Shown here piece by piece: positions 26,646-52,809 of a DNA stretch of 64,000 nt. Origin of the DNA: Hyphomicrobium sp. ghe19 (GTDB taxonomy: Bacteria; Pseudomonadota; Alphaproteobacteria; Rhizobiales; Hyphomicrobiaceae); contig NZ_LR743509.1 of the NCBI RefSeq assembly GCF_902712875.1, positions 2,618,001 to 2,682,000 on the forward strand, written 5' to 3'. Position 1 is the stretch's first letter; every line of letters begins with the position of its first letter. The position numbers and the translations under genes are program-made. The notes beneath the pieces are model-generated. The model worked only from the letters and a program-made list of their open reading frames with translations. It was not told where the DNA came from and made no database searches.

Positions 26646-26659
26646 TTGATCGTCGTCAT
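26646..26659 (-). promoter_or_regulatory. FNR/FixK-like palindrome (TTGATCGTCGTCAT)
   Basis: Nearest copy before the universal stress protein gene; centred about 84 bases before its start. A second copy lies exactly 40 bases further upstream. Confidence 0.65.
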
Positions 26660-26685
26660 GATTGCCGAACTGCTCTCGCGCAATT

Positions 26686-26699
26686 TTGATGGCCGTCAT
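26686..26699. promoter_or_regulatory. FNR/FixK-like palindrome (TTGATGGCCGTCAT)
   Basis: Second copy of the pair, 40 bases (about four helical turns) from the one at 26646. It could help the stress protein gene or a + strand transcript; no clear + strand gene follows before HdeD. Confidence 0.65.
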
Positions 26700-27039
26700 T
26701 GTGCGCGCCGCTTTTCAGCGGCTGTTAGCAGATGTTTGCGACCGACAAGGTCGAGTGTTTGCCATAACAGCGGCCGAATATGTAAAACGCTTTCGGGTCG
26801 ACGAGCCCAACGGCCTTTCCCTCACAGCCTTTGATCCGAGAGGTACGTCCGGCATCCGATCGGAGCGAAACGGAGGCCGAGCTGCTTAAGCCCGTCGGAC
26901 TACTCGCTGACCTGCCGTTGCAAGGACAGTCGGCAATACGATTTGTTTCATCCGATTATTCTTCTGGTCTCGGCGTTCGGGATAGACCGTTTACCGAGAG
27001 CTGCCCATAACAACATCAAATTTGCAGCTTGCCACAAGA

Positions 27040-27053
27040 TTGATGACCATCAG
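27040..27053 (+). promoter_or_regulatory. FNR/FixK-like palindrome (TTGATGACCATCAG)
   Basis: 79 bases before the first ATG of the HdeD-like gene. TTAGAA at 27075-27080 lies where the -10 box of a class II FNR promoter is expected. Confidence 0.6.
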
Positions 27054-27131
27054 TTTCCGGCCGGCGAACTTCGCTTAGAAAGCGGATCATCGTTTGCGGA
27101 CGATGGGGTCGTTTCGACGTGAGTTCACACT

Positions 27132-27764
27132 ATGAAGGCGGACATTTGGTCTCGAACCTTGCACGCGGCGGATGATGGAGGTTCGCGGTCTCGCCCAATG
27201 AGCGATGGATTAGCGCGAAATTGGTGGGCAGTCGGATTGCGCGTGATTGCGGCGATTGCTTTCATCTTTATTTTGACGCTGCCCCGGCCAACAGTCGCAT
27301 CACTCATCACAGCCTTTGGCGTGTACGTCACGGCGGACGGGATCTTCGCCATCATATCCGGTATTCGAGCGATCCAGCGCGGAGAGCGATGGAAGATGCT
27401 GATCCTCGAAGGTTCGATCAACCTCGCAATGGCCGGCGTAATACTTGCGATGCCGGAGCTGGCGATCATCCCCTTCGTGCACCTGACAAGCGCATGGGCG
27501 GTTCTTACCGGCGCGCTTGCTCTGGCCGCGTCACGGCGCCTAGCCGATGGCTATGGTCGCTTGCTTCTAGCTTTCAGTGGGGGAATATCGATCGCGTGGG
27601 GTGCGCTGCAGGCAGCCGCAGGACCGGCCGCAGAAACCGATGCAAGCAAGCTCGCAAACTGGCTCCTTGCCTATTCCATTTCGTTCGGCGTGGCGATGCT
27701 TGCCCTCTCAATCAAATTGCACCGATCGGCAATAACCACGACATCCGCTAGGCGGGACTTCTAA
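27132..27764 (+). CDS. HdeD-family membrane protein (DUF308)
   Basis: 210 residues (188 if the ATG at 27198, MSDGLARNWW, is used, which better fits the family start). Six helices in three DUF308-type pairs, with the first NWWAVGLRVIAAIAFIFIL typical of HdeD. HdeD proteins take part in acid and general stress resistance in the inner membrane. It belongs to the set of genes with the palindrome upstream. Confidence 0.82.
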   Translation: MKADIWSRTLHAADDGGSRSRPMSDGLARNWWAVGLRVIAAIAFIFILTLPRPTVASLITAFGVYVTADGIFAIISGIRAIQRGERWKMLILEGSINLAMAGVILAMPELAIIPFVHLTSAWAVLTGALALAASRRLADGYGRLLLAFSGGISIAWGALQAAAGPAAETDASKLANWLLAYSISFGVAMLALSIKLHRSAITTTSARRDF

Positions 27765-27877: not shown

Positions 27878-27891
27878 TTGACGGCCGTCAT
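27878..27891 (+). promoter_or_regulatory. FNR/FixK-like palindrome (TTGACGGCCGTCAT)
   Basis: 60 bases before the ATG of the flavoprotein gene. TGATAC at 27912-27917 fits the -10 position for a site centred at -41.5. Confidence 0.72.
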
Positions 27892-27950
27892 GATCTCACA
27901 AATGTGCAGCATGATACCTAGGCGCTTCGTGTCATCTTTTGGGGCTCCCT

Positions 27951-29681
27951 ATGGCTACAATCGATACCCGCCGCGATCAGATGCTCCCGAAGCTTACGCC
28001 TGAAGAAGTCGACAGGCTGCGCCGCTTCGGTGAAGTCAGGCGATACGCATCGGGCGAGCCTCTATTCGTTGCCGGTCAAGAGGCGCCCGGTATGTTCGTC
28101 TTCATTTCCGGAAGGGTCCTTGTTTCGCGCCGGGATCCGTTGGGCCACCGTGAACCGATTGTAGAGCAGGGCCCTGGCGAGTTTCTTGCCGAGCTTGGCC
28201 AGCTGTCGGGCCAGCGCGCGCTGGTCGATGGGCATGCCGTATCCGACGTCGAAGCGCTTCTCATCCCTCCCGAAAAATTGAGAAACCTACTTATTGCCGA
28301 GACCGATCTCGGCGACAAAATCATGCGCGCACTAATCTTGCGACGTGTCGCCTTGATCGAGATGGGATCGGGTGGGCCCGTTTTGATCGGTCCCGCCGAG
28401 AGCCCCGACATGGTGCGGCTGCAGGGTTTCCTAGCCCGAAATGCTCAACCGCATCAGGTTATCGACCCCAGCGAGGATCCTGAAGCGGCGGCACTCATCG
28501 ATCGTTACGGGCCCAACGAGCTGCCTTTGGCGGTGTGCCCGAACGGAACGGTGCTCAAGAATCCCAGCGAGGCTGAACTCGCGCAAATGCTCGGCATGGC
28601 GCGTACCGACCTGCCGCACCGGACCTTCGACGTGGCTATCGTCGGCGCGGGTCCCGCCGGGCTCGCAACGGCGGTTTATGCAGCCTCCGAAGGATTGTCG
28701 GTGATCGTCTTCGAGCAACGCGCCTTTGGGGGACAGGCGGGAGCAAGCTCACGCATCGAGAATTACCTTGGATTTCCGACCGGGATCTCCGGCCAGGCGC
28801 TCATGGGGCGCGCCTATGTTCAGGCACAGAAGTTTGGCGCCGAGATCATCATCCCGGTGCCGGTAAAGCGGCTTCACTGCAACGACATGCCCCGCACGCT
28901 CGAACTCGAGCAGGGCAGACCCACCAAGGCCAGGGCCGTGGTGGTAGCCTCGGGGGCCAGCTACAGGCGGCCGGATATCCCGAACCTTCGGGACTTCGAG
29001 GGCCGCGGCGTGTGGTATTGGGCTTCGCCGATCGAGGCTCGCATGTGCCGAGATGCCGAGATTGTTTTGGTCGGTGGGGGCAATTCAGCCGGCCAGGGAG
29101 TCGTTTTCCTATCCCGCCACGCGAAAAAGATCTGGATGCTGGTGCGTGGACCCAGCCTGGACGCGACGATGTCCCACTATCTCATCGACCGCATCAAGGA
29201 AACGCCTAACATCGAGGTCCTGATGGAGACCGAGCTTGTTGCGCTTGCCGGGAATGAGGAGGGCAGGCTCACCCGGGTAAGGTGGCAACACAAACCAACC
29301 GGTAAGGAGACCGAGAAGCCGATCCGTAACGTCTTCTTGTTTATAGGCGCCGATCCCGCAACCAAGTGGCTAGAGGGTTGCGGTGTTGCCGTCGATGCTA
29401 AAGGCTTCATTACGACAGGCTGCGAAAGCGACGTGCCCGCGTCCGCTGGGCCTGATGGACGGTCTCGGGCGCTCGAGACGAGTGTACCCGGCATATTCGC
29501 CATCGGGGATGTCCGCTCGGGTTCGGTGAAACGGGTCGGGGCCGGCATCGGGGAAGGCGCGGCAGTCGTCGCGGAACTGCACTCATACCTCGCCGAGAGC
29601 TCAATTTCCGCGCAAGAGCGCAAAGAATCGATCGGCGAACGAACGCAAACAGATGCTGTGCTACTAGGGCATTCTGGATAG
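27951..29681 (+). CDS. cNMP-binding/thioredoxin-reductase-like flavoprotein without the redox CxxC
   Basis: 576 residues. Residues about 14-130 form a cyclic-nucleotide-binding-type domain. Residues 150-215 resemble a thioredoxin fold lacking its CxxC. From 226 on comes a thioredoxin reductase-type FAD/NADPH module with GAGPAG at 232-237, a second nucleotide site VLVGGGNSAGQ and the FAD motif GIFAIGDVRSGSVKRV. Where TrxR has CATC, this protein has WASPIEA, so it cannot reduce thioredoxin the usual way. The role may be redox sensing or reduction of another acceptor. The ATG at 27951 is preferred over the in-frame TTG at 27939. Confidence 0.88.
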   Translation: MATIDTRRDQMLPKLTPEEVDRLRRFGEVRRYASGEPLFVAGQEAPGMFVFISGRVLVSRRDPLGHREPIVEQGPGEFLAELGQLSGQRALVDGHAVSDVEALLIPPEKLRNLLIAETDLGDKIMRALILRRVALIEMGSGGPVLIGPAESPDMVRLQGFLARNAQPHQVIDPSEDPEAAALIDRYGPNELPLAVCPNGTVLKNPSEAELAQMLGMARTDLPHRTFDVAIVGAGPAGLATAVYAASEGLSVIVFEQRAFGGQAGASSRIENYLGFPTGISGQALMGRAYVQAQKFGAEIIIPVPVKRLHCNDMPRTLELEQGRPTKARAVVVASGASYRRPDIPNLRDFEGRGVWYWASPIEARMCRDAEIVLVGGGNSAGQGVVFLSRHAKKIWMLVRGPSLDATMSHYLIDRIKETPNIEVLMETELVALAGNEEGRLTRVRWQHKPTGKETEKPIRNVFLFIGADPATKWLEGCGVAVDAKGFITTGCESDVPASAGPDGRSRALETSVPGIFAIGDVRSGSVKRVGAGIGEGAAVVAELHSYLAESSISAQERKESIGERTQTDAVLLGHSG

Positions 29682-29959: not shown

Positions 29960-29973
29960 TTGATGGGCGTCAT
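29960..29973 (+). promoter_or_regulatory. FNR/FixK-like palindrome (TTGATGGGCGTCAT) with matching -10 box
   Basis: 69 bases before the zinc finger gene at 30042. TATATT at 29996-30001 is exactly where a -10 hexamer would be if the palindrome is centred at -41.5. Confidence 0.75.
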
Positions 29974-30041
29974 TTCACACACCTGTTCACAACCATATAT
30001 TCTCCAATGTTGCGGGAATGCACGTCGGAGAACAGTTGAGT

Positions 30042-30350
30042 ATGGCGAACCATTGCGCACATATCGCGCGAATCCGCGACGTCGTTCCAAGCGCTCTCGG
30101 GTGTGAGGAATGCTTAAAATCGGGCGATCCGTGGTTGCATCTGCGGGTCTGTCGCAGCTGCGGTCATGTCGGCTGCTGTGATCAGTCCCCGAACCGGCAC
30201 GCTACGAAACATTTTCGCGCAACGAAGCACCCGATCATCGAAGCCTACGATCCGCCGGAAGGATGGGGCTGGTGTTACATCGATGAAGTGTTCTTCGATC
30301 TTTCGGACCGGCCGACGCCGCATCTAGGGCCGATTCCGCGATATTACTAA
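30042..30350 (+). CDS. UBP-type zinc finger protein
   Basis: 102 residues, dominated by a ZnF-UBP domain: HCAHI...CEEC...WLHLRVCRSCGHVGCCDQSPNRHATKHFRATKHPII, with the paired Cys and His ligands all present, then GWGWCYIDEVFFDL. In eukaryotes this fold binds the free ubiquitin C-terminus; in bacteria it is a stand-alone protein of unknown role, often beside thioredoxin-reductase-like flavoproteins as here. The ATG at 30042 is chosen over the frame's earlier start at 30018. Confidence 0.88.
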   Translation: MANHCAHIARIRDVVPSALGCEECLKSGDPWLHLRVCRSCGHVGCCDQSPNRHATKHFRATKHPIIEAYDPPEGWGWCYIDEVFFDLSDRPTPHLGPIPRYY

Positions 30351-31046: not shown

Positions 31047-31583
31047 TCATGCGACTGCCGTGCTCATTGCACGCTCGATCGCGGACGGTAGACTTGCGAC
31101 GCCATAGGGATCGTCGTGTCTCGTTCCGTTCACGAAGAACGTCGGCGTACCATTCACGCCGCTTCGCACGCCGCCGATGAAATCGGCCTGAACCTTGCTC
31201 GCGAAAGTTTGCGCCGCAAGCGCATCGCGAAGCGCAATTGGCGGAAGCTTCAAACTTGCAGCGAGGTTGATGAGAAATGGTATGCTGAGCTGATGTTGAT
31301 TGGCGAAAATGGCTCTGTGCATCTGCCAAAACACCCCACGACTGCCCGCGAACTCTGCGGATTCCGCTGCCGGTTCGGCGAACGGATGAATCTCGACCAG
31401 CGGAAAGTGCCGGAAGACCAAGCTCACGCTGTCGCCGAACTGCGCTAAAATTTGCGCCAATACCGGCTGCGCAGCCCCGCAAAACGGACACTGGTAATCG
31501 CCATATTCGACGAGCATTACCGGCGCGTGAGGCTTTCCAAGAATATGGTCAAGCGGCGTTACTGGCACTCTTAGTCGCGACAT
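31047..31583 (-). CDS. DsbA-like thiol-disulfide oxidoreductase
   Basis: 178 residues. GDYQCPFCGAAQPVL carries the CPFC active site, and the cis-Pro region is GVNGTPTFFVNG. No signal peptide is seen, so it resembles cytoplasmic DsbA-type proteins (as fused to NhaA in some bacteria). Its start overlaps the peroxiredoxin gene by 35 bases. Together they look like a redox pair, in which this protein could recycle the peroxiredoxin; that pairing is inference. Confidence 0.83.
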   Translation of the reverse strand: MSRLRVPVTPLDHILGKPHAPVMLVEYGDYQCPFCGAAQPVLAQILAQFGDSVSLVFRHFPLVEIHPFAEPAAESAEFAGSRGVFWQMHRAIFANQHQLSIPFLINLAASLKLPPIALRDALAAQTFASKVQADFIGGVRSGVNGTPTFFVNGTRHDDPYGVASLPSAIERAMSTAVA

Positions 31584-32061
31584 TGGACGTTTCCTGCGAA
31601 GGAAGAGATTCCAGGGCGTCGAGAATGCCGTCCGCGCCCGGATTAACAGCGATTGGCGATTGGTAGCTCCAAGCGATTGTTCCTTTTTCATCGACGACGA
31701 ACAAAGCTCGCTCCGCCACTCCATCTTTATTTCGGTAGGCGCCATAGGATTTGGCGACGGCGCCCTTCGGTTCGAAGTCCGAAAGAAGCGCAAAATGCAG
31801 TTTGCGATCTTGCGCAAACGCCTGATGGCACCAAGCGCCGTCTACAGAAATGGCGAGCAGCTCGGCGCCGTACCTCCGAAACTCGGAGAGGACATGGTTG
31901 TAGAGACTCAACTGGTCGCCGCAGACCGGACTCCAGTCAGCGGGGTAAAATGCAAGGATCACCCGTCGCCCGGAAAACTCGTCAAGAGATAGCATTTGGT
32001 CCGGGGTGACGTTGAGCGTGAAGCCTGGGGCCCGAACTCCTTTACCTAGGATGTTGGTCAC
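31549..32061 (-). CDS. Peroxiredoxin (AhpC/TSA family)
   Basis: 170 residues with the active-site segment YPADWSPVCGDQ, where Cys is the peroxidatic residue and Ser replaces the usual Thr. It has no clear second resolving Cys near the C-terminus; another Cys lies in GAWCHQAF. It reduces hydrogen peroxide or organic peroxides. It is the first gene of the operon with the DsbA-like gene. A palindrome sits 102 bases before its start. Confidence 0.85.
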   Translation of the reverse strand: MTNILGKGVRAPGFTLNVTPDQMLSLDEFSGRRVILAFYPADWSPVCGDQLSLYNHVLSEFRRYGAELLAISVDGAWCHQAFAQDRKLHFALLSDFEPKGAVAKSYGAYRNKDGVAERALFVVDEKGTIAWSYQSPIAVNPGADGILDALESLPSQETSNVATKSASNAA

Positions 32062-32162: not shown

Positions 32163-32176
32163 TTGACGATCGTCAG
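32163..32176 (-). promoter_or_regulatory. FNR/FixK-like palindrome (TTGACGATCGTCAG)
   Basis: In the divergent gap between the peroxiredoxin and CbpA genes. TATCGT on the minus strand at 32139-32134 fits a -10 box for the peroxiredoxin operon. Confidence 0.65.
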
Positions 32177-32331
32177 ATTTGTAGGCCGAGTCAGTCAGTG
32201 CGCCAAGAAGCCCTCACGCTCCAGTACTCAGGTGGTGAAAGCGTTGTGTCGCCGAACAGAACTTCTCTCCTGCTCGAGAGCTGCATGAGAGCGCGGAATT
32301 TGGTGATGACGCCTCGCACGACGTGCCGTCG

Positions 32332-32345
32332 TTGACGACCGTCAA
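32332..32345 (+). promoter_or_regulatory. FNR/FixK-like palindrome (TTGACGACCGTCAA) with matching -10 box
   Basis: A perfect outer palindrome 62 bases before the cbpA ATG. TATCAT at 32368-32373 is exactly at the -10 position for a site centred at -41.5, the class II FNR layout. Confidence 0.78.
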
Positions 32346-32406
32346 TTTACGATGCGCACTTACGGCCTATCATCGTCGCGATTATTGGCAAGGGAGATCA
32401 GACGCG

Positions 32407-33321
32407 ATGGCCAGCGCCGACCCCTATGATACTCTTGGGGTACCACGGAGCGCTTCCCAGAAGGACATCCAGAACGCCTATCGCCGACTGGCCAAGAAGC
32501 TGCATCCCGACCTCAACCCCGGTGACAAGGAGGCGCAGAGCAAATTTCAGGCGCTCTCCTCTGCGTATGACGTCCTGAGCGACGAGGAAAAACGTGCCCG
32601 CTTCGATCGCGGCGAGATCGATGCGTCGGGTGCTGAGCGGCCACAACGGCGATACTATCGCGACTTCGCACAGGCAGGCGCGGGGGCGCAGCGATATGAA
32701 ACAGCGTCGGGCTTCGGCGACTTCGGGAATGCAGACGACATTCTATCGGCTATTTTCTCCCGAGGCGACCGGCGCGGCTTCCGCGCACGCGGCGATGATA
32801 GGCACTATCGCCTGGAGGTAGATTTTCTTGATGCTGTGAACGGCACATCGGAGCGAATCACCCTGCCGGACGGGCGTAGTCTCGACGTCGTTATCCCGCC
32901 CGGCACAAATGATGGTCAAACGCTTCGTCTGGCGGGACGGGGAGATGCCGGCCCAGATGGCCGCAACGCGGGAGACGCGTTCATTGAGATCACCGTCCGC
33001 CCACATCCATTTTTCAAACGCGACGGCCGGAACATCCGTCTTGACTTGCCGATTTCTCTTACCGAGGCCGTGCTCGGTGGCAAGGTTACTGTTCCGACAC
33101 CCGCCGGACCGGTGGCGGCCACGATTCCCAAGTGGTCCAATACCGGAAAGGTCCTTCGGCTGAGAGGGAAAGGCGTCCCAGGGCGAGACGGTAAGCGGGG
33201 CGACGAATATCTAACCCTGCAGATCATGCTCCCCGATCAGCCGGATGCAGAGCTTGTGGCATTTGCCGAGAGATGGTCGGCCGGAAAAGCCCACAATCCT
33301 CGGCAAAAGATGGGAGTGTGA
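32407..33321 (+). CDS. cbpA: CbpA-type DnaJ co-chaperone
   Basis: 304 residues. A J domain at about 5-70 carries the HPD motif (KKLHPDLNPGDKEAQ), followed by a Gly/Ser/Arg linker and two DnaJ C-terminal beta domains (from about 130). It lacks the zinc-finger domain, which marks CbpA rather than DnaJ. It stimulates DnaK ATPase under stress. The stop overlaps the cbpM start (TGATG). It lies opposite a dnaK-grpE pair, making an accessory chaperone set. Confidence 0.93.
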   Translation: MASADPYDTLGVPRSASQKDIQNAYRRLAKKLHPDLNPGDKEAQSKFQALSSAYDVLSDEEKRARFDRGEIDASGAERPQRRYYRDFAQAGAGAQRYETASGFGDFGNADDILSAIFSRGDRRGFRARGDDRHYRLEVDFLDAVNGTSERITLPDGRSLDVVIPPGTNDGQTLRLAGRGDAGPDGRNAGDAFIEITVRPHPFFKRDGRNIRLDLPISLTEAVLGGKVTVPTPAGPVAATIPKWSNTGKVLRLRGKGVPGRDGKRGDEYLTLQIMLPDQPDAELVAFAERWSAGKAHNPRQKMGV

Positions 33322-33677
33322 TGTTCGATACGAAAGAGTTTTCCCGATTGGCTGGAATTTCGTCTGCAGCGGTTCAAACTTGGACTAAGGCTGGATGGAT
33401 CTGTCCGAGGCAAACGCGGTCCGGCCAGCGTTTCTCGACGATCGATCTTGCGCGGGTGCGGCTCATTCTCGATCTTCGCGGTTCGATGGGCGTCAACGAT
33501 GAGGGAATTTCCATAATTCTGCATCTCATCGATCAGATCTATGCTTTGCGCAGCGCGCTGCACGTCGTCTCAACGATGGCAATCCGGAATGGCTCCGACG
33601 GACGGAACATCACGGTCGCCGCATTCAAGCCGGAATGGGTCGAACGGCACCGACGCAAAGCCGCTTACGGCCGATAG
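33321..33677 (+). CDS. cbpM: CbpM-like MerR-fold modulator of CbpA
   Basis: 118 residues. The N-terminal MerR-type helix-turn-helix reads FSRLAGISSAAVQTWTKAGWICPRQTRSGQRFSTIDLARVRLILDLR, and the helical C-terminal part ends in basic residues. Its coupling to cbpA matches the E. coli cbpAM operon, where CbpM binds the J domain and inhibits it. This one keeps a more MerR-like wing, so DNA binding is also possible. Confidence 0.75.
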   Translation: MFDTKEFSRLAGISSAAVQTWTKAGWICPRQTRSGQRFSTIDLARVRLILDLRGSMGVNDEGISIILHLIDQIYALRSALHVVSTMAIRNGSDGRNITVAAFKPEWVERHRRKAAYGR

Positions 33678-33700
33678 TAACAGCTCTCGGTAAAAGTCGA

Positions 33701-33831: not shown

Positions 33832-34359
33832 TCACGCCGCCTTGCTGACGCCCACGAGAGCCGGCCTGAGAAGACGGTCGTGTTGCATGTAGCCGGGCTG
33901 AATAACTCTCGTCACTGTTCCCGGCAAGCACTGCGTATCGGATTCCTCAAAGCTTGCCTCATGACGGTGCGGATCGAACGGTTCTCCGAGCGGGTCAATC
34001 CGCACAAGGCCATGATTGGCGAATGTGTCTAGAAGGGCTCGACGCGTCGCATCGACCCCTTGCAGAAGATTAGCAACTACGGGCCAGGAGCGTTCGGCTT
34101 CGGGGACGCTCGCAATGGCGCGCTCCAGGTTGTCGACCGATGACAGCAAGTCGCGGGCAAAGCCCGAAGCCGCGAATCTAGCAGCTTCATCTCGGTCTCT
34201 TCGCGCCTGGCTGCGGACGTTTTCCTGGTCTGCGAGCGCCCGCAACAAGCGATCTTTAGTAGCTGCCAGTTCCGCCGCGAGTTCCACCGTGGACGGTTGC
34301 TGGGGCTGTTTTGTTTCATTCTCGGCGCCGACAGGGCGCATTTGGTCTTGCTCAGCCAT
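33832..34359 (-). CDS. grpE: GrpE nucleotide exchange factor
   Basis: 175 residues. A coiled-coil N-terminus (ELAATKDRLLRALADQENVRSQARRDRDEAARFA) and the C-terminal GrpE beta domain (GLVRIDPLGEPFDPHRHEA...TVTRVIQPGYMQHDRLLRPALV) are intact. It releases ADP from DnaK. It starts three bases after the dnaK stop, so the two are one operon. It is shorter and more diverged than a typical housekeeping GrpE, consistent with an accessory copy. Confidence 0.92.
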   Translation of the reverse strand: MAEQDQMRPVGAENETKQPQQPSTVELAAELAATKDRLLRALADQENVRSQARRDRDEAARFAASGFARDLLSSVDNLERAIASVPEAERSWPVVANLLQGVDATRRALLDTFANHGLVRIDPLGEPFDPHRHEASFEESDTQCLPGTVTRVIQPGYMQHDRLLRPALVGVSKAA

Positions 34360-34362
34360 GGA

Positions 34363-36273: not shown

Positions 36274-36343
36274 CACTTCTGCCTCCATCGCTCCGATTCA
36301 TATTCGCTGAGATACAGTCAACGGCTTCTGCGGGATTGCCGCC

Positions 36344-36357
36344 ATGACGGTTGTCAA
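36344..36357 (-). promoter_or_regulatory. FNR/FixK-like palindrome (ATGACGGTTGTCAA)
   Basis: Upstream of dnaK-grpE. TGTATC on the minus strand (36316-36311) is a possible -10 box, a few bases off the ideal spacing. A weaker copy (CTGACAGTCGTCAC) lies at 36449-36462. Confidence 0.65.
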
Positions 36358-36448: not shown

Positions 36449-36462
36449 CTGACAGTCGTCAC
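36449..36462. promoter_or_regulatory. Degenerate FNR-like palindrome (CTGACAGTCGTCAC)
   Basis: Inner ten bases match the consensus, both outer positions do not. In the dnaK upstream region. Confidence 0.35.
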
Positions 36463-36647: not shown

Positions 36648-36661
36648 TTGACGGTCGTCAT
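36648..36661 (+). promoter_or_regulatory. FNR/FixK-like palindrome (TTGACGGTCGTCAT) with no adjacent gene
   Basis: A strong match about 350 bases before the ATPase inhibitor gene. GATAGA at 36687-36692 could be a -10 box. The transcript would have a long leader, or there may be an unannotated small RNA or gene between 36700 and 37009. Confidence 0.6.
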
Positions 36662-37395: not shown

Positions 37396-37409
37396 TTGAC
37401 GGCTATCAT
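37396..37409 (+). promoter_or_regulatory. FNR/FixK-like palindrome (TTGACGGCTATCAT)
   Basis: 84 bases before the PRC-barrel gene start at 37493. CAAAAT at 37432-37437 sits at the class II -10 position. Confidence 0.68.
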
Positions 37410-37492
37410 GGCTCGAAGAGGCACGCCTGTCCAAAATCACAGATAGCTCGCATGTATGGGCCGGCGTGGTAGCACTCAAAGAGGAGCCATTC

Positions 37493-38104: not shown

Positions 38105-38172
38105 ACACGCATTGATCCGTTTTATCGCGCGGTTGGCTCAGGGGTCAGCGATAACTATGAAGGCACCGACAG

Positions 38173-44464: not shown

Positions 44465-44967
44465 CTTGCAACTCCTTTTCATCTTTACCAATACGATGGC
44501 GAATGGTTTGGAATGCTATCGGCGTGAACTTGGTTCTGGTGTTAGAGGAAGCATCGGCGTGCTACCGGCAGACGCGAAGGCTAAAGCGTCGTCACGCTGC
44601 TTCTGCAGCCGCAGCTGTGCATTATCCGCGGCATGCGATAACTGCCGTCAGCGCTGATACTGTCTAGCCTTTCTGGCTTCGGGCATTGCTTCAGAATTCC
44701 CCGGCGGGGCTTGCTCAAAGGCTTGCAAAGCGTGGAGTTGCGCCCGATTGGCGGGCCAAACATCAGCGGACCTCGGGCGCAGCGTCGCCAATATGCCAAT
44801 AGTTATGGAAGCCGGGGTGGTGAGGCCATGACAGCCGTCAAATCTGCGAAGTGATGCAGCGCTCCGACACTGCATTCTTTAATCGTCCGATAGAAAACAA
44901 CGATGTTCAGTTCAGTCGCCTTAAGGAATGAAGTGCCAGAATCGCTCGCCGTCGGCAAACCGCGTAC
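44465..44967. other. Gap with one palindrome and no clear gene
   Basis: About 500 bases between the PfpI gene and the decayed kinase. It holds a palindrome at 44828-44841, which once probably drove the kinase gene. I see no other feature. Confidence 0.4.
44828..44841 (+). promoter_or_regulatory. FNR/FixK-like palindrome (ATGACAGCCGTCAA)
   Basis: 140 bases before the decayed kinase frame; it probably served the kinase/FixJ-type pair. Confidence 0.58.
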
Positions 44968-45645
44968 TTGGTTCTGGGTTGGCGCTCAAGAACTCGCGAG
45001 CACTCGTCGCTAAGCAGGCACAGCATTATGCCGTGGATTGAAGCACCTACTGACGTACGGGAACTTAGGCGCTGCATTCGGAACTGTGTCTCGATCTCGA
45101 CGTCGCCCGCCATCTCGAAAGATTACGATCAACGTCAAATCGCGGATGGCGTCACCGCAGCGCTTCGCTCCATGCTCGATCTCGAACTCGTTCATGTTTC
45201 GATGCGAAAAAAACCGGACCAGCGATCGATCGAAGCTGCGCACACTTCTAATCGCCAGAATTCCCGCGCTCGCGCTGAGATCATGGCGGCTGTTTCCAAA
45301 GGATGCTTGGCTGACCAAATAAAGAGCTTGGAGCGGAACGCTGCCGGAGAAATCGGTGTCAAACTTGGCATAATGTCAGCGGCCATCCATCTCGGAGAAT
45401 ACGGCGTCATTACCGAGCAGCAGCGGCTCGCTCCGGAGATAGCCGGCGATCTCTTTGAGCCCTTCATATCCATAACCTTCATATCCATAAAGAGAGAGGG
45501 CATGGGGATTTGCCTCTCCATTTCTCAATCGATCATAGAAGCGCATGGCGGCATATTGGTAAGCGAGCCTCGATCAGAGGGGCGGAGGACTTTTCGCTTC
45601 GCGCGTCCTGCTGTTTCCCGAGGAAAAGCCAATGCAGCCTGTTAA
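44968..45645 (+). pseudogene. Decayed sensor histidine kinase (GAF piece joined to HATPase end)
   Basis: The frame shows a GAF-like part (IADGVTAALRSMLDLELVHVSM) that runs directly into the last third of a HATPase domain (FEPFISI...GMGICLSISQSIIEAHGG). The phospho-acceptor His region and the N box are absent. A 15-base tandem duplication (cttcatatccataac) at about 45461-45490 adds FISITFISI at the join. The protein cannot phosphorylate, so I call it a pseudogene. Its end overlaps the start of the response regulator gene, which is intact. Confidence 0.75.
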
Positions 45646-46243
45646 GCGTATGGTTCACATTGTTGACGACGATGTCTCGCTACGGCGTTCACTTCAGTAT
45701 CTTCTGCGAGCAGCCGGATATGGGGCTTCAACATACGACTCACCCCTTGCTGTCATAGAAGCTGCCGCGAAACTTGCAGGCGGCTGCGTCCTGCTCGATT
45801 TGCACATGCCCGGCATGGACGGTCTGGAGCTCCATCGCCGCCTCGTCGCACTCGATGTTCGTGCTCCCGTGATCCTAATGACGACCCAATGCGACGTTCC
45901 AACGGCCGTCAATGCGCTCAAGAGCGGCGTCGTCGATTTCATCGAGAAACCTTTCAATGACCGCCGCGTACTCGAAGCAATCGAAAGCGCATTCTCAGCA
46001 AACTTGTACGCGAACGCTGCTCGCGAGGGCGTTCGCGCGGCGCGCAGGATCGCTGCTTTAACCCCTCGCGAAAGGCAGGTCCTCGATGGTCTTGCCGCTG
46101 GTCATGCGAACAAAACCATTGCCTATGATCTCGGGATCAGCGTCCGGACCGTCGAAGTACACCGGGCACGCTTGCTCGATCGACTAGGCACACGACGCCT
46201 GGCTGTGGCGATACGCATGTCGGTTTTGGCTTCGCTTGGCTGA
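45632..46243 (+). CDS. FixJ/NarL-type response regulator
   Basis: 203 residues. A receiver domain (HIVDDDVSLRRSLQYLL with the acidic pair, phospho-Asp in VLLDLHMPGMDG, Lys in FIEKPF) is followed by a LuxR-type helix-turn-helix (LTPRERQVLDGLAAGHANKTIAYDLGISVRTVEVHRARLLDRL). The arrangement is that of FixJ, which in rhizobia activates fixK under low oxygen. The partner kinase just upstream is decayed, so it is now an orphan or is phosphorylated by another kinase. A 3' hairpin (TTGGCT-GAC-AGCCAA, 46236-46250) crosses its stop. Confidence 0.9.
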   Translation: MQPVKRMVHIVDDDVSLRRSLQYLLRAAGYGASTYDSPLAVIEAAAKLAGGCVLLDLHMPGMDGLELHRRLVALDVRAPVILMTTQCDVPTAVNALKSGVVDFIEKPFNDRRVLEAIESAFSANLYANAAREGVRAARRIAALTPRERQVLDGLAAGHANKTIAYDLGISVRTVEVHRARLLDRLGTRRLAVAIRMSVLASLG

Positions 46244-46321
46244 CAGCCAATCGGAGCCTAGAAGGCCACGCCGATAAGATTTCATCGACAGCGGTCATTG
46301 CCGGCACAACAGTCTGCTCGA

Positions 46322-47044
46322 TCACGACCTGCTCATTCGACATGTGCGGCCCCCATCCTCGATCGCCTCACGGTCGACGATTCTTACTTGGCGCGTACCT
46401 GAAAATCTGATGAGCCCGCGCTGCTTCAATCCTGACAAGGACCGGCTTACGGTCTCGGCGGAGATAGCGAGAAACTCGGCAATGTCCGAGCGGGAAATTG
46501 GAAGAGCGATCCTATCGTCCGTTTCAAATGGAAGACGCTCACCCATCTCAAGGAGGAAGGCTGCTACTTTCTCCAGGGCTGTGACCCTCCCTACGATGAG
46601 CAATTGAGCCTCAAGCCGCGATATCGCCCCGAATGCTATCTCCCGCAAGAGGCGAGCAACCGCGGGATCGACATCTGCGAGCGCTTCAACCCGTCGGCGC
46701 GGATATCGAGCAATCTGCGTTTCATCGACGAGCGCTTCGACTGTCAAGTCGCTCCCGCTGGCAACAACCAGACCGAAGAAGTCTCCAGGAAGCAGGAGAT
46801 TGACAATCTGACGACGGCCATCGGGCTGCGTCGCACAACGCTTTGCAGCACCCTCGACGACCCGATACCAGTAGCCGGTTTCATCGCCGCTCGAAATCTC
46901 TTGGTGAAATCCGTAGGAGGTAACAGTTGCTATTGATTCTAATGATTCTAATGCGTCCCACTTGTGGTGCTCGCAGTAATCCTCGATGTTATCGCCTTTA
47001 AATACGGCTTTGGAGCGCTGGAGTTCGAGTGCGCGACCATTCAC
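46322..47044 (-). CDS. Crp/Fnr-family regulator (FixK-like)
   Basis: 240 residues. A cNMP-type sensor domain (about 30-150) and a Crp-type winged helix contain ISRSDIAEFLAISAETVSRSLSGLKQRGLI. The recognition-helix residues E-x-x-SR are those of FNR/FixK proteins that read TTGA half sites. The N-terminal cysteine cluster of oxygen-sensing FNR is missing (only one Cys, in DYCEHHKW), as in FixK. It is therefore the best candidate for the factor that binds the palindromes of this region. It faces the FixJ-type gene with a 78-base gap. Confidence 0.88.
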   Translation of the reverse strand: MNGRALELQRSKAVFKGDNIEDYCEHHKWDALESLESIATVTSYGFHQEISSGDETGYWYRVVEGAAKRCATQPDGRRQIVNLLLPGDFFGLVVASGSDLTVEALVDETQIARYPRRRVEALADVDPAVARLLREIAFGAISRLEAQLLIVGRVTALEKVAAFLLEMGERLPFETDDRIALPISRSDIAEFLAISAETVSRSLSGLKQRGLIRFSGTRQVRIVDREAIEDGGRTCRMSRS

Positions 47045-47573
47045 AACGACCTCCTGCAGTAGCTAAGTTATGGCTCAGTAGGGAGAGCATCGCGGATATC
47101 CGGCGAATGGCCAACCTCGTAAAACTTCGTATCGTAAAACTGCGTAACCAGGTGGGTTTGGGGGGAACCATCGGAGGAGTTTGAGGTTAATGAAATCCTG
47201 TTTACATCTCCGCATTTCCTTCACGGCATTTCGTTCACGGCTGGCGGGCCTAGGTCCACCTCTGGCCCAGTCTTGATGATTTGGTTGGTACCATTCCGAG
47301 CGACACACGATATCCCCGGGGGGGTTGCAGCGATCCGATCCATCGTCGCCTGAGAGTGCTCCAAAGAGATTCGCAAAGCCAAACTCGATGTGAACCCGCA
47401 GCTTAACAGTTATATTTTTCGCGTTTTTTATCTCGTTGAGGTTCGTCCGCGAGCAGGCGGCGGCCGTTCGGAAAATGACGGTTATCAAGGATACGCGGTG
47501 TGCGTTTCTGTAGCTCTCAAGTCGCGCGCTCCGCTGCGCCGGCTTGCGCTCAAACGTAACTCGAGGTGATGAC
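47045..47573. other. Gap before the BON gene
   Basis: 529 bases. Only the palindrome at 47475 near its right end is recognised; the rest shows no gene. Confidence 0.4.
47475..47488 (+). promoter_or_regulatory. FNR/FixK-like palindrome (ATGACGGTTATCAA)
   Basis: 99 bases before the BON gene start at 47574; TAGCTC at 47511-47516 is at the expected -10 place but is a weak box. Confidence 0.65.
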
Positions 47574-48071
47574 ATGCGATCGGACGACGAAATCAAGCGC
47601 GAGATCGAACAAGAACTCAGGTCGCATCCAGACCTCAATTCAGAGGACATCGCCGTCGCCGTCAGAGGCGGCGTCGTAACTCTGGCGGGTTACGTGCGTA
47701 GCTACGCGGATAAGTATGAGGCGGAACGAACGGTCAAATGCGTCACCGGAGTCGGCGGAATTGCCAACGATCTTGTGGTGCGCCTGCCAAAGATCGACGA
47801 ACGGCCTGACCCCGATATCGCGCACGATGCTCTGGGTGCCATTCAGACTGAGCTCTCCGCTTCCGCGGAGGGCATAAAGGTCGTCGTAAAAGATGGACAC
47901 GTGACCCTGGAGGGCTTGGTGCCAGGCCATTCTCAGCGCCAAGTCGCAGAGGATGTCGTGCGCAAGATCAAGGGCGTGAAGGGGGTCCACAATCAGATTC
48001 AACTGAAGCCGGAAGCCAAGCCCGACGCCATCAAAGAGAAGATCGTTGACGCCTTCCGGCGCGATGCCTAG
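47574..48071 (+). CDS. Double BON-domain protein
   Basis: 165 residues with two BON domains (about 5-72 and 85-152), each with the pattern V-x-V-x-G-V-x-L-x-G-V near VAVRGGVVTLAGYV and VVVKDGHVTLEGLV. No signal peptide, so it is cytoplasmic, unlike OsmY. BON proteins bind lipid or protein surfaces in stress. The ATG at 47574 with GAGGTG before it is preferred over the in-frame TTG at 47544. Confidence 0.87.
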   Translation: MRSDDEIKREIEQELRSHPDLNSEDIAVAVRGGVVTLAGYVRSYADKYEAERTVKCVTGVGGIANDLVVRLPKIDERPDPDIAHDALGAIQTELSASAEGIKVVVKDGHVTLEGLVPGHSQRQVAEDVVRKIKGVKGVHNQIQLKPEAKPDAIKEKIVDAFRRDA

Positions 48072-48885: not shown

Positions 48886-48891
48886 AAGCGA

Positions 48892-49884
48892 TTACATGCT
48901 TACCGCCGCGGGGCCCCGGCTCATTTGCAAAACAGGAATGATTTCTCGTCCGATCTCGTCCAAAACCTCGCCCGCCGAGCGCTTGCTGTATTTCAAGTTC
49001 AAAGCGACGTGATTGACACCTGCGACCTGCAAGGCATCAAGGAATCGCAGTACGATTTTGCGGCCACCGCTAAATCCAAGGTGAATAGGACGTGGCGGAG
49101 CATTCGGATCCTCAGAGAGATCGACATAAAGGGATTGCGCAAATGGCTTGAACGTTCCCGGCGCAAGCGCCGCTACCGTTGCATGCCATCGCGCGACATG
49201 TACTTTTTGCAATTCGGGAGAACGCGGGTAAGTGATCCATCCGTCCGCATTGGCTGCAATCCAATCGAGGCTTTGACGGCTTGAGCCTGTAACCAGAAGC
49301 GGAAGCCTACCCGTTGGTTTCGGGACCAGATCTGCAGTTCCCAGCATCGTGCCGTAGACCGACTCGATGCGCGGAAATTCCTCCTTGAGGAGTTCGCGCA
49401 GCACTCGGAAATTTTCTCTAAACAATACGTCGCGTTTGTTCCAATCGACGCCGAACGCCGGAAACTCGACCGGACGATCTCCAGAAGCGACGGCCATCAC
49501 GAATCTTCCGTTGCTCAGCTGATCGATGGACGCCGCAGCCTTGGCAGTGTGAATTGGATGACGAAGCGGAAGTACAATCGAGCCGGTGGCTAATCCAATC
49601 ATCGATGTCTGCGCCGCGATCCAGCCGAGCCAAACCCACGCATCATAGATTTGTCCGACATCCCCGAAGGTCGGATCGCGAAGCGGAACATCGCGCGTCC
49701 ATAATGCGCTGAATCCCAGTTTCTCGGCTTGCTGCGCAAGGCGTTCCTGTCCGCTCATAGCGGGCACATCACCCTCGAAAGCTTCGATTGGAAAGAAGAC
49801 GCCAATGGTCATTCGATTTTTAGAAAACATGCGGCGGAAAGCACGGTGTTCGGCCACCGTAGCAATATGGAGAGGCTTACCCAT
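48892..49884 (-). CDS. LLM-class flavin-dependent oxidoreductase
   Basis: About 330 residues (306 from the likely start at MTIGVFFPIEAFEG). The bacterial luciferase-type barrel is shown by LAQQAEKLGFSALWTRDVPLRDPTFGD, GLATGSIVLPLRHP, AKAAASIDQLSNGRFVMAVASGDRP and ADGWITYPRSP. It uses FMN (or F420 in other lineages) and reduced flavin for an unknown substrate. The start is ATG at 49812 or 49884. It diverges from the Zn alcohol dehydrogenase with a palindrome between. Confidence 0.85.
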   Translation of the reverse strand: MGKPLHIATVAEHRAFRRMFSKNRMTIGVFFPIEAFEGDVPAMSGQERLAQQAEKLGFSALWTRDVPLRDPTFGDVGQIYDAWVWLGWIAAQTSMIGLATGSIVLPLRHPIHTAKAAASIDQLSNGRFVMAVASGDRPVEFPAFGVDWNKRDVLFRENFRVLRELLKEEFPRIESVYGTMLGTADLVPKPTGRLPLLVTGSSRQSLDWIAANADGWITYPRSPELQKVHVARWHATVAALAPGTFKPFAQSLYVDLSEDPNAPPRPIHLGFSGGRKIVLRFLDALQVAGVNHVALNLKYSKRSAGEVLDEIGREIIPVLQMSRGPAAVSM

Positions 49885-49975
49885 GCTTTCTCCGAAATGT
49901 GCAACTTCAAGTCAGAGACGCGATTGAGCGGCCGTCAACCGGCAAAACATCTAAGCCTGCCAAGGCCCGGCAAAA

Positions 49976-49989
49976 ATGACGGCTGTCAT
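49976..49989 (+). promoter_or_regulatory. FNR/FixK-like palindrome (ATGACGGCTGTCAT)
   Basis: 72 bases before the Zn alcohol dehydrogenase gene and 92 before the LLM oxidoreductase frame, so it could serve either direction. Confidence 0.65.
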
Positions 49990-50060
49990 TTCGAAAGTAC
50001 GCCGTACCGCCCAACTTGCGGACCTAGAAATGTTTCAACGCAAGCGATGGGAATCCACCG

Positions 50061-51320
50061 ATGGCTAACAATCGCGCAGTCACTTTTATGGGTCCGGGCA
50101 AAATGGAAGTCCGCGACGCAGGTTATCCGAAGCTCGCAGATCCCAAGGGACGAAAGATTGAGCACGCAGCCATTCTTAAACTTGTCACAACGAACATTTG
50201 CGGCAGCGATCTTCATATTTACAACGGTCGTTTTGAAGCGCCCGCCGGAATGCTGATGGGACACGAGAATACGGGCGAGGTCGTCGAGGTCGGTTCGCAT
50301 GTCCAGCACATCAAGAAGGGCGATATCTGCTCAGTTCCTTTCAATGTGGCCTGCGGCACCTGCGATAGCTGCCGGGATCGCCATACCGACGTCTGCTTGA
50401 GGGCCAATGAAGATCTTGGCTTTTGCGGCGCTTACGGTTTCAACCTCGGCGGCTGGCAAGGCGGACAAGCAGAATACATGCTTGTCCCGTGGGCGGATTT
50501 CCAGCTTCTGCGATTCCCTGACAAGGATGAGGCCATCGAGAAAATCCGGGATCTCACATTGCTCTCCGATATTCTTCCGACCGGGTATCACGGCTGCGTT
50601 GAGGCAAACATAAGGACGGGATCCACCGTCTACATCGCCGGCGCCGGTCCCGTTGGGCGCTGTGCGGCTGCAAGCGCACAGCTTCTGGGTGCCTCCTGCA
50701 TCATTGTCGGCGATGAAAACAAAGCGCGTCTCGATCTTGTGAAGAACGCCGGATACGAAATCGTCGATACCTCCAGCGCCACGCCAATTCCGGATCAGAT
50801 CGAATCAATCCTCGGCAAACGATGGGTTGACGGCGCCGTCGATTGCGTTGGCCTGGAGTGTCACGGTAACGGACCGGACGGCAGCAAGAAAAACGAGGTC
50901 GAATCCGTCATCAATACGCTGATGGAAGTCGTGAAGCCAGCAGGTGCAATGGGCGTGCCTGGCGTTTACACGAATATGGATCCGGGAGCTCCCAACAGCC
51001 TCAACAAGCAAGGCAAAATGGCGCTGGACCTTCCCAAAGCTTGGGTTAAGTCGCCCAAGATGACAGCTGGCCAATGCCCCGTCATGCGCTACAACCGCGA
51101 GTTAATGATGGCGATCATTTGGGGGCGCATGCCAACGCTGACGAGCATGCTCAATACCGAAGTGATCTCGCTCGACGATGCTCCAAAAGCTTACGAAACT
51201 TTTGGCGCCGGTGCGGCCAATAAATTCGTCATTGATCCGCACAATATGACACGCCTCGCGGGCAAATCTCTTCGTGATAGCGCTGCTGCTCGTCCGAAGG
51301 CCACGGCCGGTACGCGTTGA
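50061..51320 (+). CDS. Zn alcohol dehydrogenase, glutathione-independent formaldehyde dehydrogenase type
   Basis: 419 residues. Catalytic zinc ligands lie in TTNICGSDLHIYNG (Cys) and GHENTGEV (His-Glu); the structural zinc set is CGTCDSCRDRHTDVC; the NAD site is YIAGAGPVGRCAAASAQLLGA. The long insert VDGAVDCVGLECHGNGPDGSKKNEVESVINTLMEVVKPAG marks the Pseudomonas FdhA/PFDH group, which oxidises formaldehyde or dismutates aldehydes with tightly bound NAD. It probably detoxifies aldehydes. ATG at 50061. Confidence 0.9.
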   Translation: MANNRAVTFMGPGKMEVRDAGYPKLADPKGRKIEHAAILKLVTTNICGSDLHIYNGRFEAPAGMLMGHENTGEVVEVGSHVQHIKKGDICSVPFNVACGTCDSCRDRHTDVCLRANEDLGFCGAYGFNLGGWQGGQAEYMLVPWADFQLLRFPDKDEAIEKIRDLTLLSDILPTGYHGCVEANIRTGSTVYIAGAGPVGRCAAASAQLLGASCIIVGDENKARLDLVKNAGYEIVDTSSATPIPDQIESILGKRWVDGAVDCVGLECHGNGPDGSKKNEVESVINTLMEVVKPAGAMGVPGVYTNMDPGAPNSLNKQGKMALDLPKAWVKSPKMTAGQCPVMRYNRELMMAIIWGRMPTLTSMLNTEVISLDDAPKAYETFGAGAANKFVIDPHNMTRLAGKSLRDSAAARPKATAGTR

Positions 51321-51576
51321 AGTCGATGGCGAACGTGAAAATTTGCAACGCAACGGTCGCGGCCAATGCAAGGCCGCGATCCGCGCGCGAGGCATCCATC
51401 ATTCTGATATTGATGATCGCGACCACAAGGATGCTGCCTCGAAGCGACGAAGCACGACCGCGAGGCGCACGCTGAAAGCAACGAGCGTGGGCCATACCAG
51501 TCCGATATAGATCAAACGACGAAACGCAAGCGTCATCGATCGATGGCAACTCACTCAAGCTTTACGTCTTCACCCG

Positions 51577-52719
51577 TTAGATTCGGCGGCGTATCGCATA
51601 GCCATATTGGATTGGCCATTCCGGCGGATTGTCGAGCTTTTGCTCGGCGATAAGTGCCCAATAGGGTTCGCGCAAGAACTCACGAGCTATGAGAACGAGA
51701 TCAGCATCTCCTCCGGTTACGATTTCGTCGGCGAATTCCGCGTCGGTGATCAGCCCCACAGCTCCGGTGTTGACTTCGGCCTCGTGGCGAATGCGGCGGG
51801 CGAATGGCACCTGGTAACCGCGGTGCAGCGGGACTGGTGCCGTCGCCGTAGTTCCGCCCGAAGAGACGTCAACGAGATCGACACCCATCGCCGCGAGCTT
51901 CTTGGAGAGTGCAACGGAATCATCGATGTCCCATCCACCCGCCACCCAATCCGTTGCAGAGATTCGCACGAAGAGAGGAAGCTCATCGGGGATTATGTTT
52001 CGCAATCGCTCGGTGATTTGCAAGAGCAGACGCATCCGGTTCTCGCGGCTACCTCCATACTCGTCCGTCCTGTGATTGCTGATGGGGGACAGAAATTCGT
52101 GCAGCAGATAGCCATGAGCCGAATGGATTTCGATGACTTCAAAGCCGGCCTTGAGGGCGCGGCGGGCAGCCGCCTCGAAGGCGGCAATCACATCGTCAAT
52201 TCCGCGCTGGTCGAGCGGGATGGGAACAGGGCTCTTCTCATCGAAGGGAAGAGCACTCGGGCCAACAACCGCCCAGCCGCCTTCATCGGGTTGGAGCGCG
52301 CGCCCGCCCTTCCACGGCGGCTCGCAACTTGCCTTGCGACCGGCGTGGGCAAGTTGAATGGCTGGCACGGCGCTCTGAGACTTCAGAAATCTTGCAATTC
52401 GCGCCAGCGGCTCGATGCGTTCGTCGCTCCAAAGCCCGACGTCGCCTGGCGTGATGCGACCCTCGGGCAAGACGGCGGTCGCTTCGACCATGACAAGCCC
52501 GGCCCCACCGACAGCCCGACTGCCCAAATGCACGAGGTGCCAGTCATTGGCGAATCCATCCTGGGCTGAATATTGGCACATCGGCGCCACGGCGATGCGG
52601 TTGCGAATGGTGACCTTCCGAAGGGTCAAGGGGGTCAATAAATTGACCTCCGCGACCTCAAGATCGTGCCTGCTATCAGTTTGTCCGCTTCGCCCCAAAT
52701 TCGTGACGTGCTGATCCAT
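51577..52719 (-). CDS. Old yellow enzyme, YqjM-type NADPH dehydrogenase
   Basis: About 380 residues. The FMN barrel has IRNRIAVAPMCQYSAQDG with the redox-tuning Cys of the YqjM class, IQLAHAGRKAS, EIHSAHGYLLHEFLSPISNHRTDEYGGSRENRMR with the His-x-x-His substrate pair, and DLVDVSSGG. It reduces activated alkenes and is induced by oxidative or electrophile stress in relatives. The ATG at 52719 is preferred over the in-frame GTG at 52740. A palindrome lies 77-90 bases upstream. Confidence 0.92.
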   Translation of the reverse strand: MDQHVTNLGRSGQTDSRHDLEVAEVNLLTPLTLRKVTIRNRIAVAPMCQYSAQDGFANDWHLVHLGSRAVGGAGLVMVEATAVLPEGRITPGDVGLWSDERIEPLARIARFLKSQSAVPAIQLAHAGRKASCEPPWKGGRALQPDEGGWAVVGPSALPFDEKSPVPIPLDQRGIDDVIAAFEAAARRALKAGFEVIEIHSAHGYLLHEFLSPISNHRTDEYGGSRENRMRLLLQITERLRNIIPDELPLFVRISATDWVAGGWDIDDSVALSKKLAAMGVDLVDVSSGGTTATAPVPLHRGYQVPFARRIRHEAEVNTGAVGLITDAEFADEIVTGGDADLVLIAREFLREPYWALIAEQKLDNPPEWPIQYGYAIRRRI

Positions 52720-52795
52720 AGAACTCACCCTTTCGGTCACCCAGCTTCAGATGAGAAATCGATCTGTCAACAGCGGCGAACAAGCGAGCTTTGCC

Positions 52796-52809
52796 ATGAC
52801 GGTCGTCAA
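52796..52809 (-). promoter_or_regulatory. FNR/FixK-like palindrome (ATGACGGTCGTCAA)
   Basis: Upstream of the old yellow enzyme gene; the rightmost copy seen. Confidence 0.68.

Follow-up and report, generated by a model that had tools for sequence, protein, structure and literature searches.

The FixLJ-FixK systems of rhizobia and Caulobacter are among the closest described counterparts of the stress-gene island considered here, which is marked by a recurring palindrome and occupies positions 26646 to 52809 of a 64,000-nucleotide stretch of Hyphomicrobium sp. ghe19 DNA (contig NZ_LR743509.1, positions 2,618,001 to 2,682,000; the whole stretch is referred to as the window). The published FixK/FnrN consensus is TTGANCNNGATCAANG (PMC4999443), the Sinorhizobium meliloti FixK site is TTGAT-N4-ATCAA (PMC5596199), and in B. 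dolosa, a fixK reporter is induced through FixLJ when oxygen is low (PMC5234846). The island shares with these systems a Crp/Fnr fold, a FixJ-like neighbor, the dyad spacing, the NG tail (position 15), and the lack of the FNR cysteine cluster. However, in comparison with TTGANCNNGATCAANG, its operator favors C at position 4 and, at position 5, has mostly G where the consensus has C, and its regulator belongs to a separate clade, scores below the NCBIfam FixK cutoff, and is associated with stress and chaperone targets.

DosR of mycobacteria is a response regulator and has a different operator. Its regulon resembles the island in logic and content (i.e., universal stress proteins [USPs] and a hypoxia-induced Balon homologue; PMC6127331 and PMC10901736), a likeness for which we claim no homology; hypoxia induces Balon homologues in mycobacteria, and Balon genes are found near HdeD, DnaK, and OsmY genes (PMC10901736). 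For the low-oxygen-activated (lxa) locus of Burkholderia cenocepacia, a Crp/FixK regulator has been proposed (PMC6127331). Like the island, lxa is a large stress locus with USPs and heat-shock and BON-domain proteins, but it belongs to another bacterial class and has another gene set; the likeness is one of gene content, and the locus tag of the regulator gene (BCAM0049) is far from those of the lxa genes (BCAM0276 on). In Rhizobium leguminosarum, an FnrN dyad drives a low-oxygen-induced small heat-shock gene (PMC11784457), which is again a stress gene induced in low oxygen via a Crp/Fnr dyad, but a single gene with a TTGA-N6-TCAA anaerobox and an FnrN-type regulator. Finally, HcpR1 of delta-proteobacteria has the consensus wyTTGACnnnnGTCAArw (PMC1274295), and the half-site by itself therefore has a published precedent. 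HcpR1 is similar in its TTGAC-N4-GTCAA half-sites and in the small residue preceding the conserved Glu of the recognition helix, but HcpR controls hcp/frdX in other lineages (PMC1274295); neither gene was found among 30 window proteins scanned, and the remaining genome was not searched for hcp.

Predicted operator sites in the window and in the genome

A first-pass annotation, made from the sequence alone, had proposed that 17 copies of a 14-bp palindrome (WTGAY-RRYY-RTCAW) mark a regulon. All 17 coordinates were correct on rechecking, and 13 of the sites fit WTGAY-N4-RTCAW strictly, while one outer base is mismatched at 27040, 32163, and 39905 and both are off at 36449. With gene starts placed by hand, the predicted operators are as follows.

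26646-26659, minus strand: predicted operator, weakest of the 17; ~96 bp before the USP gene (start taken as 26550)
26686-26699, minus strand: predicted operator; ~136 bp before the USP gene
27040-27053, plus strand: predicted operator; 79 bp before the HdeD/DUF308 gene
27878-27891, plus strand: predicted operator; 60 bp before the cNMP-domain thioredoxin-reductase-like flavoprotein gene
29960-29973, plus strand: predicted operator; 45 bp before the ZnF-UBP gene, with a -10 box (TATATT) in the expected place
32163-32176, minus strand: predicted operator; 102 bp before the AhpC/peroxiredoxin gene
32332-32345, plus strand: predicted operator; 62 bp from the assumed cbpA start at 32407, with a -10 box (TATCAT) in the expected place
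36344-36357, minus strand: predicted operator; 68 bp before dnaK
36449-36462, no strand assigned: weaker predicted operator in the intergenic region that separates dnaK from the ATPase zeta gene
36648-36661, minus strand: predicted operator; 372 bp away from the start of dnaK, with a -10 box that fits
37396-37409, plus strand: predicted operator; 84 bp before a PRC-barrel gene, with a -10 box (CAAAAT) in the expected place
39905-39918, plus strand: predicted operator upstream of a small open reading frame (ORF) at 40125
40015-40028, plus strand: predicted operator; the small ORF at 40125 begins 97 bp farther on
44828-44841, minus strand: predicted operator; 364 bp before the DJ-1/PfpI gene
47475-47488, plus strand: predicted operator; 86 bp before the BON-domain gene and, on its other side, 431 bp from the regulator start
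49976-49989, no strand assigned: predicted operator between the divergent LLM oxidoreductase (92 bp) and formaldehyde-dehydrogenase-like alcohol dehydrogenase (ADH; 72 bp) genes
52796-52809, minus strand: predicted operator, an exact match to the refined pattern; 77 bp before the old-yellow-enzyme gene

The window contains 18 strict matches to WTGAY-N4-RTCAW, compared with a mean of 1.13 (maximum, 6) in 100 dinucleotide shuffles. Sixteen of these lie within 26646 to 52809; the initial count, every member of which is real, had overlooked three of them with non-RRYY centers (i.e., 36854, 40674, and 51105). The flanks, described at first as empty, carry strict non-RRYY matches at 55775 and 63556 and, at 8974 and 15898, RRYY 12-bp cores whose outer bases are not W. 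All 17 sites are wholly intergenic in a region that is 21% intergenic (binomial p = 4e-12 with hand-placed starts); the 32332 site would sit inside the longest mechanical cbpA frame (32323 to 33321, GTG). Most sites lie 45 to 136 bp from the nearest plausible start (50 to 110 bp in the first-pass annotation); four are farther away (44828, 364 bp to DJ-1; 36648 and 36449, 372 and 173 bp to dnaK; 39905, 207 bp to a small ORF).

The scan of the complete genome (4,616,147 bases) that the first-pass annotation had suggested was run with patterns, not with a matrix, and it revealed a concentration in the island. The strict form occurs 107 times. The RRYY-centered form occurs 16 times, 11 of them in the island; RRYY centers thus make up 11 of the 18 strict matches inside the window and 5 of the 89 outside it (about 1/16 expected by chance). 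The refined pattern (AAWTGACGRYCGTCAWGGC; see below) has 46 matches with up to three mismatches, of which 33 are outside the island and the remaining 13 fall on 12 of its sites; a reversed-pattern control yielded 4 matches. With up to two mismatches, 7 of 10 matches fall in the island, the rest being at 1401993, 3238378, and 3503069. In ORF lists inspected by eye, nothing island-like was seen near four of the five outside RRYY sites (L001, L002, L003, and L015; 4364236 was left out), and the contexts of the refined-pattern sites L190, L197, and L198 held no recognizable island genes. The concentration of RRYY and refined matches indicates that the strong sites are mostly local, and there may be a few remote targets elsewhere in the genome.

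The regulator clade, associated palindromes, and predicted targets

The protein encoded at 46322 to 47044 matches PF00027 and PF13545 above the cutoffs and hence belongs to the Crp/Fnr superfamily. Its NCBIfam scores are 44 bits for Fnr (cutoff, 228) and 119 bits for FixK (NF050806; cutoff, 300), and the nearest solved structure is that of FixK2 (4i2o; E = 1e-50). The FNR four-cysteine Fe-S motif was absent from its translation, in which three scattered cysteines were seen by eye. The genome has 10 HTH_Crp_2 matches, 8 of them over the cutoff, and about six were judged by eye to be true Crp/Fnr proteins; E/D-TVSR helices occur in three of these proteins (i.e., the island regulator and those at 1391517 and 1151544). 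A canonical FNR-type site (TTGATTCACATCAA; G000:C1:1151003) precedes the HTH match in the paralogue at 1151544 by ~540 bp and possibly belongs to the promoter of that gene. No near relative of the island regulator was found in 21 congeneric genomes (best match, 2.8e-25; self-match, 5e-155), its best identity across 397 genomes of the order was 47%, and a single-protein search of viral and genome contigs yielded no close orthologue. Among plasmid relatives, the best were in Azospirillum and Sinorhizobium fredii NGR234.

Homologue loci were gathered by similarity to the island regulator, and a profile scan of GTDB genomes with the clade alignment gave 80 named loci, which are the best 80 of 112. 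Maximum-likelihood analysis of 77 rows recovered a clade of 39, the window protein among them (ultrafast bootstrap, 99; approximate likelihood ratio test, 96). Within the clade, 23 rows have at least two motif copies, 9 have one, and 7 have none; outside it, the corresponding numbers are 1, 4, and 33 (of 38), all of these counts being affected by short contigs and by sites without the counted centers. The strict RRYY form was scarce in the first 20 homologue loci, and the pattern emerged with the 12-bp core. The core TGAYRRYYRTCA occurs 11 times in the 11 nearest loci (0.59 expected), 30 times in the next 16 (0.78 expected), and 31 times in the other 53 (2.22 expected), where 23 of the 31 are in L135 to L140 and L161. 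Three of these loci (L135, L136, and L137; Rhodoplanes serenus, Bradyrhizobium BTAi1, and a contig labeled Planctomycetota) form a long-branched subgroup that has both the motif and BON genes; a binning error or a transfer may account for the Planctomycetota label. The clade also has gammaproteobacterial members (L112, L113, L114, L117, and L118; Steroidobacter and metagenome-assembled genomes), some of them near BON, PRC, and PsiE homologues.

Motif-blind palindrome counts put TGAC-N4-GTCA at the top for both the island and the NGR234 stretch; in the two Azospirillum stretches, it came first in one and fourth in the other. It was also the top palindrome of the 38 clade loci other than the window (121 versus 8.55 expected, a figure inflated by near-copies). 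In ten FixK2-type control loci (a set without L104 and without L103, which the tree places in the clade), TTGA-N6-TCAA ranked second (25 versus 1.2 expected) and TGAT-N4-ATCA ranked tenth (23 versus 2.7), the first being GATC-N8-GATC. The S. meliloti pSymA stretch from 620000 to 669900 contains no TGACGNNCGTCA, one TGAC-N4-GTCA, and one TGAT-N4-ATCA. Of seven genomes singled out for high motif counts, the four covered in full (G012, G114, G207, and G370) have scattered sites and no comparable cluster, the nearest being three sites within 32 kb in G012.

The recurrence extends to the genes behind the sites. The annotated Azospirillum brasilense stretch likewise carries TMEM175, CbpM, DnaJ, redoxin, DsbA, USP, LLM, and PRC-barrel genes. 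Enrichment before start codons, which the first-pass annotation had named as a check, was found in the related loci. The 39 loci with a regulator homologue contain 236 TGAYNNNNRTCA sites, and 103 of these lie in 270-bp windows at the starts of island-gene homologues, which cover 67 of 707 kb (1.54 versus 0.208 sites per kb; Fisher p = 7e-43). After thinning to 28 loci by removal of near-copies, the fraction was 86 of 189 (p = 3e-35). Sites often precede genes that are likely to be first in their transcripts (BON, 17/20; DnaK, 13/17; USP, 7/8; DUF308 [HdeD], 9/14; PRC1, 8/13; FDH-like, 5/7; aldo/keto reductase, 4/6; CbpA, 6/12; AhpC, 6/14), while genes expected inside operons seldom have one (GrpE, 0/12; CbpM, 0/10; DsbA, 1/17). 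The FixJ-like gene has a site in 2 of 27 cases and the regulator gene in 9 of 38. In the ten FixK2-type loci, which contain few island-type genes, 3 of 42 sites lie at such starts (p = 0.48).

The refined core is [TC]TGAC-G-N-N-C-GTCA[AG], with an A-rich 5' flank and N-G-C in the 3' flank; RRYY therefore describes the center only partially. Ninety-one nonredundant foreign sites, oriented by gene, read A-M-A-[TC]-TGAC-G-R-Y-C-GTCA-A-N-G-C, and farther downstream they have T at position 36, A at 37, and T at 41. The TGAY..RTCA core of this set was imposed by selection, while the center, the flanks, and the -10 box were free. Position 4 is C in 73 of the 91 sites, and position 5 is G in 64 and C in 15. 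The proposal that the operator is distinct from that of FNR/FixK proteins is supported, chiefly by the inner G/C pair; TGAC arms as such are not exclusive to the clade. A matrix trained on the foreign sites (the window was not in the training set) scored the 17 sites at 25.6 to 15.6; one other window site (63556) reached 16.6, and the maximum in the reversed window was 10.6.

The combination of A at -11 and T at -7 occurs at offset 36 in 34 of the 91 sites, and 14 and 12 times one base to either side (median over offsets, 3). This puts the inferred start at position 48 and the dyad center at -41.5, where class II activators sit at CRP and FNR promoters. No consensus -35 box was visible in the column counts of these sites. 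The layout is that of a class II Crp/Fnr-activated promoter with a predicted start. The best -10 matches in the window are at 29960, 32332, and 37396, and the 49976 site has possible -10 boxes in both directions.

No single residue of the recognition helix explains the operator, since Alcanivorax proteins (Anr-like) also have the AVETVSR helix. The choice between Ser and Cys in ETV[SC]R correlates with the outer base (C/G in 8 of 80 versus 43 of 102 arms; p = 1e-6), but ancestry confounds this comparison and L108, L120, and L124 do not conform, so we do not claim an effect.

Proposed control and rival explanations

A regulon centered on the palindrome is supported by the enrichment of the sites, by their concentration in the island, and by their reappearance alongside the clade and ahead of the corresponding genes. 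We consider it likely that the palindrome is the operator of a dedicated Crp/Fnr activator encoded at 46322 to 47044, a member of a FixK-like clade that recurs with stress and dormancy genes. The computed features, including the -10 box spacing, are plain observations; that this protein is the binder, as the first-pass annotation had implied, we infer from comparative evidence (i.e., the clade, palindromes, targets, and matrix). Under this reading, a FixJ-like response regulator would probably raise expression of the activator once oxygen or redox conditions worsen. The activator dimer would bind [TC]TGACG-NN-CGTCA[AG], centered 41.5 bp before the transcription start, and contact RNA polymerase in the class II mode, jointly switching on chaperones, the universal stress protein, the peroxiredoxin, PRC and BON proteins, and oxidoreductases. 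Low oxygen as the signal and a role in dormancy are suggested by gene content and by the published analogues.

The FixJ step is suggested by gene neighborhood. The FixJ-like gene (224 bits; cutoff, 255) adjoins the regulator gene, and for 26 of 38 clade loci, tblastn placed a FixJ-like match no more than 3 kb from the regulator, a pattern that suggests a FixJ-to-FixK type relay. The kinase beside it is a remnant that aligns to approximately residues 1 to 75 and 467/508 to 571 of four full kinases (568 to 575 amino acids [aa]), which stand beside orthologous regulators in relatives; the PAS and HisKA middle, with the phospho-acceptor region, was found in no frame of 44501 to 46300. A genome search with the kinase of a relative returned seven weaker kinase matches (29 to 33% identity), any of which may or may not substitute for the remnant.

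Several observations weigh against a dedicated island activator. The local kinase appears to lack its phospho-acceptor region, 7 of the 39 clade rows have no site of the counted form in the fetched stretch, and 52796, 36449, and 39905 have no good -10 box at the expected spacing. The other two E/D-TVSR proteins could share the sites, and a cotraveling factor may be the binder, the relatives having been picked by regulator similarity. In 25 loci of more distant, out-of-clade Crp/Fnr proteins, 20 of 72 TGAY-N4-RTCA sites precede island-gene homologues (p = 2e-11), mainly USP (6/8) and regulator (10/25) genes; position 5 is C in 11 of these 20 sites and G in 2, and 9 have TGAC in both arms. A Crp/Fnr dyad at stress genes is thus wider than the clade, whose hallmark is the inner G/C pair together with a larger target set. 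Five out-of-clade loci (L149, L153, L157, L159, and L163; Roseomonas and Caulobacteraceae types) carry CTGAC-N4-GTCAG dyads before USP, AhpC, BON, or regulator genes and possibly represent a sister regulon, mostly without the inner G.

The sites might instead be a local flavor of ordinary FNR/FixK anaeroboxes served by the paralogue at 1391517 or 1151544, with the island regulator secondary. They share the TGA half-site and spacing of the FNR group and the NG tail of FixK TTGANCNNGATCAANG, but their inner positions (C4 in 73 and G5 in 64 of the 91 sites) differ. Both paralogues have E/D-TVSR helices, and Crp/Fnr dyads precede USP and regulator genes beyond the clade; the FixK2-type loci, however, carry TGAT-N4-ATCA and show no enrichment before the few island-gene homologues present in them (3 of 42 sites; p = 0.48), and RRYY-type sites are concentrated in the island. 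On balance, we regard this explanation as unlikely. That the dyad is a repressor site, with stress lifting repression of the island, appears decidedly improbable: the fixed -41.5 spacing to the -10 box in the 91 foreign sites, with no -35 consensus, is a class II activator layout and argues for activation, even though promoter-overlapping dyads can repress and the paired sites near one start (USP and dnaK) would fit. It is scarcely credible that the adjoining FixJ-like response regulator, for all its frequent proximity in clade loci, binds the palindrome, since published FixJ sites are unlike it (PMC4999443), L124, L132, L133, and L161 carry sites with no FixJ-like match in the fetched stretch, and both the TGA half-site and a location at -41.5 are typical of the Crp/Fnr family.

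A broader reading is a real, though tentative, possibility, namely, that the island is a dormancy programme that moves horizontally among alpha- and some gammaproteobacteria, with its own regulator lineage and operator code, forming a partly insulated circuit wherever it lands. The inner G/C pair of the half-site would then be the main feature separating the programme from the FNR/FixK network already present in the host, and its logic would be like that of DosR and lxa. This divergence from FixK would be how an island could keep its regulation partly apart from the oxygen network of its host. A Crp/Fnr clade for which we found no description is thereby linked to a specific operator, along with a promoter layout (predicted) and a list of targets that recurs over many families. 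Together, these provide a testable regulator for stress genes (i.e., the DnaK system, USP, BON, PRC-barrel, and Balon-like genes) that are usually annotated one by one, and the orthologues in Azospirillum plasmids and Sinorhizobium NGR234 bring such testing within reach of laboratory strains. Among the best matches in open PubMed Central full texts, the clade, operator, and gene set were nowhere described together; subscription papers, supplements, and RegPrecise were outside the scope of this search.

Genes of the island and its surroundings

Gene identities were taken from Pfam and NCBIfam scans of window proteins.

25741-26622, minus strand: USP
27132-27764, plus strand: DUF308 (HdeD-like) membrane protein
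27939-29681, plus strand: cNMP-binding and thioredoxin-reductase-like flavoprotein
30018-30350, plus strand: zf-UBP protein
31047-32061, minus strand: AhpC/TSA peroxiredoxin and DsbA-like thioredoxin protein
32323-33677, plus strand: CbpA-like DnaJ and CbpM/MerR-type modulator
33832-36288, minus strand: GrpE and DnaK
37010-37336, plus strand: ATPase inhibitor subunit zeta family
37466-38556, plus strand: two PRC-barrel proteins
38647-39825, plus strand: baeRF8 protein, distantly Balon-like (89 bits, below the cutoff of 330)
44968-45645, plus strand: sensor kinase remnant (N-terminal ~75 aa and C-terminal ATPase part only)
45632-46243, plus strand: FixJ-like response regulator (receiver and LuxR-type HTH)
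46322-47044, minus strand: Crp/Fnr-family regulator, the proposed binder (recognition helix A-E-T-V-S-R)
47544-48071, plus strand: BON-domain protein
48892-51320, divergent: LLM oxidoreductase (minus) and formaldehyde-dehydrogenase-like ADH (plus)
51577-52740, minus strand: old-yellow-enzyme type NADH:flavin oxidoreductase

Further window genes encode TMEM175, aldo/keto reductase, quinone-reductase type ADH, DJ-1, and EAL proteins. The baeRF8 protein, which is of a distantly Balon-like ribosome-hibernation type, and the ATPase inhibitor zeta homologue both fit energy saving. Upstream of the island, tRNA-Cys (18262) and tRNA-Asn (19779) genes lie where the G+C content climbs from ~0.53 to ~0.6 (window positions 18262 to 19853). 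Just past the island, a short ORF of the phage integrase family (54440 to 54835) is a possible trace of mobility.

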